From assembly GCA_905234515.1 (NCBI GenBank), contig CAJOIN010000001.1, forward strand, positions 1 through 46,343: 46,343 bases of DNA. The letters are read 5' to 3'. The position numbers were made by a program, and so were the translations under genes. The notes beneath the pieces were generated by a model. It searched no databases. It worked only from the letters and a program-made list of their open reading frames with translations, and was not told the origin of the DNA. Within the stretch, counting starts at the first letter, position 1. Each line of letters opens with the position of its first letter. Source of the stretch: an uncultured Selenomonas sp. Its GTDB lineage: Bacteria > Bacillota > Negativicutes > Selenomonadales > Selenomonadaceae. This document shows, in pieces, positions 3,726 through 30,733 of this stretch.

Positions 3726-3745
3726 GAATATTCTAGGATTGTAAA

Positions 3746-3780
3746 AATGCTTTCTGTTTCGACAGAAAGCATTTTTTTAT
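3746..3780 (+). terminator. Rho-independent terminator of the small ORF
   Basis: AAATGCTTTCTGT-TTCG-ACAGAAAGCATTTTTTT: perfect stem plus T run. Confidence 0.92.
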
Positions 3781-7607: not shown

Positions 7608-8393
7608 ATGATATCCATCGAAGTATTACAAGGTCTTTTACTACCTTTCCTGGGCACCAGCTTAGGCGCAGCCGGGGTATATGTGTTGCGGGAGGAATTG
7701 AATCCTAAGGTACAAAAAGCTCTAACGGGTTTTGCCTCAGGCGTGATGGTGGCAGCTTCCATATGGAGCCTGCTGATTCCTTCCATGGAGGCGTCAAGCG
7801 GTCTGGGCGATTTGGCATTTCTCCCTGCAGTGACAGGCTTTTGGGCAGGAACGCTCTTTCTGTTGGCCCTGGATCATTTCATTCCTCATCTACACATGGA
7901 TGCAGATGAAGCTGAGGGACCAAAATGTTCCTTGCCTAAGTCCACCATGCTGGTAATGGCTGTAACCCTGCATAATATTCCCGAAGGTATGGCAGTGGGG
8001 GTGGTGCTGGCCGGCTGGATTTCGGGGACTGCAGACGTTACCTTGGGAGGAGCGTTGGCTCTGTCTTTGGGCATAGCCATACAGAATTTCCCTGAAGGGG
8101 CCATCATTTCTCTGCCATTGCGAGCTTCGGGGATGAGCCGCCATAAAGCATTCCTGGGAGGAGTGCTCTCCGGCATTGTGGAGCCCCTGGGCGGACTCCT
8201 GACCATTTTGGCTGCCAGCTTCATCGTGCCTGTTCTGCCATATTTACTGGCCTTTGCAGCAGGCGCCATGCTCTATGTAGTGGTGGAGGAGCTTATCCCA
8301 GAGATGTCGGCAGGGGTACACTCAAATGTGGGCGTGTTGGCCTTTGCCTTCGGTTTCACCTTGATGATGGCTTTGGATACAGCGCTAGGATAA
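7608..8393 (+). CDS. ZIP family metal transporter
   Basis: HNIPEGMAVGV and QNFPEGAIISLPL motifs, multiple TM; start ATG 7608 with SD ggagg. Confidence 0.9.
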   Translation: MISIEVLQGLLLPFLGTSLGAAGVYVLREELNPKVQKALTGFASGVMVAASIWSLLIPSMEASSGLGDLAFLPAVTGFWAGTLFLLALDHFIPHLHMDADEAEGPKCSLPKSTMLVMAVTLHNIPEGMAVGVVLAGWISGTADVTLGGALALSLGIAIQNFPEGAIISLPLRASGMSRHKAFLGGVLSGIVEPLGGLLTILAASFIVPVLPYLLAFAAGAMLYVVVEELIPEMSAGVHSNVGVLAFAFGFTLMMALDTALG

Positions 8394-8425
8394 AAGGAGG
8401 GACGGCCTTAGCCGTCCCTCCTTTT
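8392..8425. terminator. Bidirectional terminator between convergent ZIP and MFS genes
   Basis: Perfect 15-bp stem AAAAGGAGGGACGGC-CTTA-GCCGTCCCTCCTTTT. Confidence 0.92.
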
Positions 8426-8447
8426 ATCAATTATGCAATTGCTTCAA

Positions 8448-28252: not shown

Positions 28253-29497
28253 TTGGCTTTCTCAGAAAAATTATTGGCCCTGAAGCAGGAAGTCCTGCAG
28301 GAATCCACGCCGCTGTTCAAGAGAGTGGAGGAAATCGCCGAAGCAAATACTTTGAAGGTGCTGGATGCCATGCGTGAGTGCAAGGTTTCCGATGCCCACT
28401 TTAATACCACCTCAGGTTATGCCTACGACGATATCGGCCGCAGCAAGCTGGAGGAACTGTATGCCAATATATTTGGTGCCGAGCGGGCCTTGGTGCGTAC
28501 CCAGTTCGTCTCCGGTACCCATGCCTTGGCTACAGTACTATTCGGTATCCTGCGCCCCGGGGATGAGCTGGTATCCATTACCGGCAAACCATATGATACC
28601 ATGCAGACGGTCATCGGCTATGACAATCCATCCCCTGGTTCTTTAAAGGAATTCGGCATCAAGTACAATGAGCTGCCCATGGAAGACGGGAAAGTTGTGG
28701 TTGATAATATCAACCAAGTTGTGGGTACAAATACCAAAATGGTGCTTATCCAACGTTCCCGAGGCTACAGCATGAGAAATCCCTTATCAATTGAGGATAT
28801 AAGGGAAATCACAGCAGAGGTGCACCGCCTCAATCCTGCCTGCATATGCTTCGTAGATAATTGCTATGGAGAATTTGTAGATGTGCTGGAACCAACTCAG
28901 GTTGGGGCTGACATTATGGCAGGCTCCTTAATCAAGAATCCCGGCGGCGGTATTGCCCCTACAGGCGGTTACATAGTCGGTCGCGACAAACTTGTAGAGC
29001 TTGCTTCCTATCGGCTGACGGCGCCGGGCATGGGGGATGAGTTGGGGGCCAGCCTGGCCAACAACCGCCTGCTGTTCCAGGGATTATTCCTGGCACCTCA
29101 TGTAGTCTCCCAGGCGATAAAAGGAGCCATCTTTGCTGCAGGCATGTTTGAGAAACTGGGCTATAAGACTTTACCCTTGGGCAAGGACGTACGTGGAGAT
29201 ATTATCCAGGCCATAGAGCTTGGCTCTGCAGAAAAGCTGATTGCTTTCTGCCAGGGTATACAGAAATATTCACCGGTGGATTCCTTTGCAGCACCGGAGC
29301 CCTGGGACATGCCAGGCTACAAGGACCAAATCATCATGGCAGCAGGCACCTTCGTACAGGGCGCATCCATAGAGTTCAGCGCCGATGGACCTCTTAGAGC
29401 ACCTTACAATGTTTATCTGCAGGGCGGTCTGACCTTTGAGCATGCTGTCATCGGCATCATGGGGGCAGCCCAAGCTATTGAGGATTTGCAGGGCTAA
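28253..29497 (+). CDS. Methionine gamma-lyase family / aluminium resistance-like PLP enzyme
   Basis: HFNTTSGYAYDDIGR; VRTQFVSGTHAL; FVDNCYGEFV; GSLIKNPGGGIAPTGGYI. Confidence 0.88.
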   Translation: MAFSEKLLALKQEVLQESTPLFKRVEEIAEANTLKVLDAMRECKVSDAHFNTTSGYAYDDIGRSKLEELYANIFGAERALVRTQFVSGTHALATVLFGILRPGDELVSITGKPYDTMQTVIGYDNPSPGSLKEFGIKYNELPMEDGKVVVDNINQVVGTNTKMVLIQRSRGYSMRNPLSIEDIREITAEVHRLNPACICFVDNCYGEFVDVLEPTQVGADIMAGSLIKNPGGGIAPTGGYIVGRDKLVELASYRLTAPGMGDELGASLANNRLLFQGLFLAPHVVSQAIKGAIFAAGMFEKLGYKTLPLGKDVRGDIIQAIELGSAEKLIAFCQGIQKYSPVDSFAAPEPWDMPGYKDQIIMAAGTFVQGASIEFSADGPLRAPYNVYLQGGLTFEHAVIGIMGAAQAIEDLQG

Positions 29498-29555
29498 AGC
29501 AAACTCTTGCCATAATTGGGCAAAACTATTAAAATATAACTATAGTCAAGTACGG

Positions 29556-29582
29556 AAGCAGGTTTTAAGGACCTGCTTTTTC
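29556..29582 (+). terminator. Terminator downstream of the PLP enzyme gene
   Basis: AAGCAGGT-N7-ACCTGCTTTTT. Confidence 0.85.
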
Positions 29583-29589
29583 CCCTAAA

Positions 29590-29625
29590 GTTTACTGTGT
29601 TGTATTCCCGTACAACACAGTAAAC
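29590..29625. repeat. Perfect 15-6-15 palindrome upstream of the recombinase gene
   Basis: GTTTACTGTGTTGTA-TTCCCG-TACAACACAGTAAAC. Confidence 0.92.
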
Positions 29626-29671
29626 CATCTGAAGTGGATATCGGTAGTATATTTCCAGCGAGGTTTTATCG

Positions 29672-30733
29672 ATGAAAAAAATGTATGATAATGTCAACCA
29701 CTTTTCTACAGATGAAAAAACTCTAGTTCTGCCAGACGTCGCTTCATCTTCTTTGGCGCATATACCTGCGGCCCAAACCATCACGCCTGACTACTTTGTT
29801 CAGCATTACCATGAATTCTTGCCACGTTACATTGCCAATGGCAATCCCAGCAGCAACACCCTGAAAACCTACTGTTCCTGGATTGACCACTTTATCTGCT
29901 GGTGTCTGGACAACCACCTGCATCCATTAGCTGTAAACGACTACCAAATGCGCCTTTTCCGTGAGTACCTTATACAGGAAAATTACCAACCTGCTACTAA
30001 CCATACTGTTTTCATGTCCATACGTTCCTTCTTTTCCGCTGCCCAGCAGCTGGGACTTATTTCCGCCAATCCTTGCCAGGATGTAAGCATTGCCAGCACC
30101 ACTTCCCACAATCTGCTGAATTTCTACAGCCAAGAACAGATGGTGGAAATCTGCGAATTCTTTGACCAGGAGCCAGATCAATTCATCCGCACCAGGAACA
30201 TCCTTATCCTATATCTCATGGGTGTGGAAGGTCTTCGTAATATTGAGGTTCACAGGCTTTGCCGTGAGGACGTCCGCTGGGATATTAAGGTTATCATGAT
30301 TCGAGGCAAGGGTGCCGCAGGCCGCCTGGACCCTATCTATCCCTGCTCTGAGACCTTCGATATTCTCAAAGCCTATATAGATGCCATCCCAACAGACAAG
30401 CCAATCAAAAAGGAGGGTTCCCTCACCCCCCTTATTCTCTCCGATTCACACAACAACGAACTGGGCCGTATTTCCCGCAACGGCCTGCGCTATATTATGA
30501 ACAAAGCCCTGAAGATAACCGGCTTGAAACAACAGGGCCAGACCTGCCACATCTTCCGCCACAGTTGCGGCACCAACCTGTATCAGCAGACAAAAGACCT
30601 CCGCGTGGTACAGGATACCCTCCGCCACCGTGACCCCAAGATTACAGCCCGTTATGCCCATGTCAATCAACAGCTGAACAACCGCGTCACTTCAGGACTG
30701 TCTTTAAGGCGCCGGGAAGAACAGAACGATTGA
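29672..30733 (+). CDS. Tyrosine recombinase/integrase (Xer-like)
   Basis: N-terminal core-binding domain; catalytic GLRNIEVHRL (R), RGKGAAGR (K), HIFRHSCGTNLYQQ (HxxR), LRHRDPKITARYAHV (H...Y). Confidence 0.9.
   Translation: MKKMYDNVNHFSTDEKTLVLPDVASSSLAHIPAAQTITPDYFVQHYHEFLPRYIANGNPSSNTLKTYCSWIDHFICWCLDNHLHPLAVNDYQMRLFREYLIQENYQPATNHTVFMSIRSFFSAAQQLGLISANPCQDVSIASTTSHNLLNFYSQEQMVEICEFFDQEPDQFIRTRNILILYLMGVEGLRNIEVHRLCREDVRWDIKVIMIRGKGAAGRLDPIYPCSETFDILKAYIDAIPTDKPIKKEGSLTPLILSDSHNNELGRISRNGLRYIMNKALKITGLKQQGQTCHIFRHSCGTNLYQQTKDLRVVQDTLRHRDPKITARYAHVNQQLNNRVTSGLSLRRREEQND

Follow-up and report, generated by a model that had tools for sequence, protein, structure and literature searches.

We consider it very likely that a perfect palindrome in the genome of an uncultured Selenomonas sp. 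serves this lineage as its chromosomal dif site, and that the gene beside it codes for the one recombinase dedicated to the site. The site, its conservation, its position at a GC-skew shift, its linkage to the recombinase gene, the lack of XerC/XerD and the presence of FtsK with a gamma domain were all computed. A sequence-only reading had proposed a dif-like site belonging to a solitary recombinase; single copy, conservation and the lack of XerC/XerD now support that proposal, and the skew-shift position fits it too. The window, as we call the whole stretch of DNA analysed, is 46,343 nucleotides long and contains the following features.

28253..29497, + strand: flanking gene, PLP-dependent methionine gamma-lyase-like protein (PF06838, 2.4e-183)
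29263..29920, no strand: support interval of the strand-controlled GC-skew shift point (change-point 29770), the inferred replication terminus
29556..29581, + strand: terminator-like hairpin of the upstream methionine gamma-lyase-like gene, recognised from sequence
29590..29604, + strand: predicted left recombinase-binding arm GTTTACTGTGTTGTA, perfect inverted repeat
29593-29604, + strand: inner 12-bp half-site of the left arm
29605..29610, + strand: 6-bp central region (core) TTCCCG, the expected place of strand exchange
29611..29625, + strand: predicted right recombinase-binding arm TACAACACAGTAAAC, perfect inverted repeat
29611-29622, + strand: inner half-site of the right arm
29672..30733, + strand: solitary Xer-like tyrosine recombinase, 353 aa (Pfam PF00589, Phage_integrase, 1.7e-20)

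The 36-mer GTTTACTGTGTTGTA-TTCCCG-TACAACACAGTAAAC occupies positions 29590-29625, and a gap of 46 bp separates it from the recombinase ATG. The earlier description of a perfect 15-6-15 palindrome at this distance 5' of the gene was confirmed, sequence and coordinates being exact, as was its placement between an upstream terminator and the recombinase start codon: the hairpin that precedes it (AAGCAGGT...ACCTGCTT, then T's) is terminator-like, and similar hairpins occupy the matching position in loci L003-L005. Two inverted half-sites around a 6-bp centre fit the Xer/dif format of ~28-36 bp with a centre of 6-8 bp. A whole-genome search for the 36-mer, the check proposed for a single-copy site, returned only this copy in the 2.69-Mb genome (G000) with up to 3 mismatches allowed. 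Thirty first-order Markov resamplings of the window yielded 0 palindromes with arms of at least 13. The window itself holds three perfect palindromes with arms of at least 15, the other two of which carry 4-nt loops. One is an 18-4-18 palindrome at 8389-8428 with arms GATAAAAGGAGGGACGGC, and the other, a 15-4-15 palindrome at 3743-3776 with A/T-run ends, looks like a bidirectional terminator. A PADLOC scan found no defence family.

The protein encoded beside the palindrome is a tyrosine recombinase with its catalytic residues in place, R189, K213, H293, R296 and Y328 being invariant in an alignment of 15 sequences. Its nearest NCBIfam model is XerC (119.5 bits, cut-off 335), followed by XerD (108.7, cut-off 330) and XerA (106.4, cut-off 220), with XerS (NF003462) at 57.7 bits for a cut-off of 267; all scores are far below cut-off. 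Judged by model score, the recombinase is not XerS, XerC or XerD. In a tree built with Negativicutes XerC/D proteins, the recombinase and its relatives form a clade apart from Negativicutes XerC/XerD with a support of 100/100. Orthologs lie beside the site in five genus relatives at 74-87% identity, and the recombinase is present in 24 of 37 family genomes and absent from the other 13. We also see a second family of solitary tyrosine recombinases (~330-370 aa; L271-L277) in seven Selenomonadaceae genomes, which looks unrelated; five of these seven genomes are without the recombinase family of the window.

The site is single in G000 and is carried by 6/6 genus genomes, where the methionine gamma-lyase-like gene is its syntenic neighbour. 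Conservation beside the gene in related genomes had been expected of a true site, and it is found in all six, with a core that reads TTCCCG or TTCCTG. The outer arm bases differ among these genomes, left and right changing together, and in G005 the core points the other way with respect to the gene. Among distant relatives and other genera the arms differ and a 6-bp core is retained, often with a TTCC start. In an alignment of 15 selected sites, 95% of arm cells were complementary, compared with 30-44% when the partner was slid by 1-3 columns; these figures measure symmetry and are no blind proof, because the sites were partly picked for being palindromic. Both sides had changed in 11 of the 15 arm pairs. 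The arm changes are nearly all Watson-Crick on both sides (53 cells) and one-sided wobble changes are few, so a double-stranded binding site is favoured over an RNA hairpin.

A number of homologues, including copies on plasmids and extra copies, lack an evident palindrome. Weaker second copies of the site are found off the terminus, one each at G001:C2:43934-43963, near a transposase gene, and at G005:C30:33541-33570, near a contig end; these are possibly dif mimics of plasmids or mobile elements. In three class relatives (L024, L026 and L027) the region upstream of the homologue contains near-identical palindromes with CTTATAA-GTATAA-TTATA at their centre. Two of them have an XerC/D-type protein, and a palindrome of this type in G052 lies 24 kb from the skew shift.

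The palindrome is very probably positioned where the chromosome arms meet. Cumulative GC skew in the window is maximal at 29693. The raw skew step is partly due to genes switching strand there, and gene-strand control was applied for this reason; the strand-controlled test still puts the shift on the site, with a log-likelihood ratio of 77. For G001, the change-point at 680716 (support 680624-680845) and the local skew maximum at 680706 can be compared with a site centred near 680752. Twenty 20-kb samples across the 2.14-Mb contig of G001 gave positive skew in 7/7 samples left of the site and negative skew in 12/12 samples right of it, and the sign crossing falls within the site-bearing sample. 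Among genes on the same strand, third-position skew reverses from one side of the G001 site to the other (p = 2e-16 and 4e-14), and in intergenic DNA the skew drops from +0.135 to -0.141.

With gene strand controlled for, change-points bracket the site in the window and in G001, G002, G005, G018, G025 and G012. The site thus lies at the GC-skew shift point. The recombinase-linked palindromes of G007, G024 and G052 do not: in G007 and G052 palindrome and shift point are 20-24 kb apart, and a terminus reading was rejected for the G024 palindrome, where the skew has one sign on both sides. The shift point of G125 is off the site by 1-3 kb, and the raw skew maximum of G011 is ~9 kb from the recombinase. 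A search for KOPS-like motifs found strand-biased heptamers, such as GGGGGAG (85:5), which general G skew may explain.

The recombinase gene of the oral Selenomonas G012 lies near oriC, at 0.11 of the genome from dnaA, so if the dif idea is right, an orphan site is expected at the skew shift. In a blind test the shift point was located first, at 344691, and 6-bp-core palindromes were then ranked in the surrounding 100 kb. The best of these is TTTAACTATCCATAA-TTACCA-TTATGGATAGTTAAA, a 15-6-15 palindrome at 345014, which is 0.3 kb from the shift point and 0.489 of the genome from dnaA. The oral site centre, CATAA-N6-TTATG, is one that we take to resemble the centre of dif. Orphan sites of this type occur once each in G108, G114 and G125, with outer changes that are largely symmetric, at 0.6-1.6 kb from the raw skew maxima. 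Their neighbour is hisIE in G108 and G125, and an oxaloacetate-decarboxylase-like gene in G012 and G114. As hisIE also adjoins the recombinase in G001, G002 and G004, the orphan-site locus and the recombinase locus are linked by synteny. Palindromes found just 5' of the recombinase in oral species were set aside as terminator-like. In an IMG/VR record (L287, 11802-11829), an oral Selenomonas prophage ends ~240 bp from an oral dif-like site, with hisIE coming after the site; the record has only one site copy and so does not show integration at dif.

Canonical XerC/XerD with a dif site elsewhere had been named as evidence that would count against the proposal, and no canonical XerC/XerD is present in the Selenomonadaceae tested. 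XerD gave no match at E up to 1e-40 in 19 Selenomonadaceae genomes, and class relatives do match; XerC gave no match over the cut-off in 21 Selenomonadaceae genomes. The sole match to the XerC model in G000, G002, G007, G011, G012, G108 and G125 is the recombinase described here, and two recombinases above the XerC and XerD cut-offs were not found. The canonical Firmicutes dif consensus had no match in the genus and elsewhere gave scattered 2-mismatch hits at about control level. FtsK with a DNA-reading gamma domain is encoded in 9/9 genomes, at a distance from the site of 5.8 kb in G012 and 36 kb in G001.

A homologue of the recombinase (56%) is found on the S. ruminantium plasmid pSRC1 (L253), with an imperfect related site, TTTTAGTGTTGCTAA-TTATGC-TTATCCACAGTAAAA, upstream of 6007. 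The sequences suggest that this paralog and its site are a plasmid dimer-resolution pair. Several Selenomonas genomes have extra copies of the recombinase, and extra homologues such as that on pSRC1 may serve plasmids. Some half-sites (L118, L086, L253) contain TTATCCACA, which we take to be the DnaA-box consensus, perhaps by chance. No close phage homologue of the recombinase was found, and no viral contig contains the site in its 28-bp form (exact arms); the one viral hit to a looser pattern falls within phage coding sequence and was taken as chance. Mobile-element insertions exactly at the core TTCCCG, which the sequence-only reading had suggested looking for, were not found, and none of the genomes showed a product of recombination.

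Other explanations of the palindrome can be weighed against these data. It might be only an operator, at which the recombinase or another regulator represses the recombinase promoter: 46 bp 5' of the start codon is the expected place for an operator, and symmetric arms suit a dimeric regulator. We nevertheless think this improbable. A promoter scan found no sigma-70-like site overlapping the palindrome, and an operator gives no reason for a position at the terminus or for an asymmetric 6-bp core that is retained while the arms vary. Nor does it account for the reversed core of G005, or for the oral Selenomonas site, which stands at the skew shift without a recombinase and among different neighbours. 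In addition to a dif role, the palindrome may allow autoregulation of the recombinase.

Somewhat less probable still is that the recombinase travels on a mobile element, as an integrase with attP or as a plasmid resolvase, and that the palindrome is the attachment or resolution site of that element. The pSRC1 homologue with its related imperfect upstream site and the extra copies in several Selenomonas genomes speak for such an origin; against it, the gene is present in all genomes of the window's genus, in a syntenic chromosomal place by the methionine gamma-lyase-like gene, G000 holds no second copy of the site, and the searches for a close phage homologue and for viral contigs with the 28-bp form were negative. 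The least probable reading, which we regard as very unlikely, is an RNA hairpin (a terminator or 5' leader element) or a chance palindrome. Palindromes form RNA hairpins too and a terminator lies just upstream, but no T-run follows the palindrome, the two-sided Watson-Crick changes with few one-sided wobbles do not suit an RNA, and orphan intergenic copies were found without a downstream recombinase gene. Chance is excluded by the resampling and by conservation.

Under the preferred reading, that of a chromosomal dif site with its own recombinase, we infer that the recombinase would bind and cleave the site and resolve dimers under FtsK control. Each site would take up two recombinase molecules on its two symmetric half-sites, and two sites, one per half of a chromosome dimer, would synapse at the terminus as the cell divides. 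Cleavage by the tyrosines would fall at the borders of the 6-bp core, and a two-step strand exchange, probably with FtsK as activator, would resolve the dimer into monomers. With identical arms and a single recombinase protein, the direction of the site comes from the asymmetric core alone. On a broader view, to which we give about an even chance, Selenomonadaceae swapped XerCD for an independently evolved single-recombinase system, and the recombinase and its symmetric half-sites co-diversified, on chromosomes and on plasmids, to give many distinct pairs of enzyme and site in which the core alone sets direction.

This family is common in the rumen and mouth and has members without XerC/XerD, in which dimer resolution appears undescribed in the literature searched. 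Full-text searches, with most subscription papers outside their coverage, returned no description of an Xer/dif system for Selenomonas or Negativicutes. A defined candidate enzyme and site for chromosome dimer resolution in Selenomonas is now at hand. The site marks the terminus in draft genomes and is a likely attachment site for mobile elements, and its symmetric arms offer a case in which the part played by the core in directing Xer recombination stands isolated.

Among known systems, XerCD/dif of most bacteria and XerA/dif of archaea have a 6-bp central region flanked by two 11-bp half-sites (PMC5357621). The Selenomonas site shares the 6-bp central region between two half-sites, but its recombinase differs in scoring 119.5 against 335 bits for XerC, 108.7 against 330 for XerD and 106 against 220 for XerA, and the XerC/D proteins of Negativicutes form a separate clade (100/100). 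XerH/difH of Helicobacter and Campylobacter likewise relies on a single recombinase, which there is of 354-362 aa and FtsK-dependent (PMC5357621). Our recombinase matches the XerH structure 5jjv weakly in sequence (1.9e-07); difH, however, has imperfect repeat arms of 11 and 10 bp (PMC5357621), and its hosts belong to another phylum. XerL/dif of Legionellales is similar in having a single recombinase missed by homology surveys and a palindromic site near the terminus with variable flanking genes (PMC9765430). It differs in being known only from Legionellales and in a longer protein, the catalytic tyrosine of the Coxiella protein being residue 389.

The earlier reading had drawn its analogy with XerS/difSL, the system of streptococci and lactococci (PMC5357621, PMC3025954), and this analogy stands in part. 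Both have one tyrosine recombinase of ~350 aa, a gene adjoining the site (here directly, at 46 bp), a terminus position and a host among the Firmicutes (PMC5357621, PMC3025954). The identity of the enzyme does not carry over, with 57.7 bits against an XerS cut-off of 267, and neither does the form of the site: in difSL the central region spans 11 bp and the arms are unequal (PMC5357621), whereas the Selenomonas site has a 6-bp core and perfectly equal arms. As judged from sequence, then, this would be a single-recombinase Xer/dif system not previously described in the literature searched, and one that probably works like XerS/difSL.
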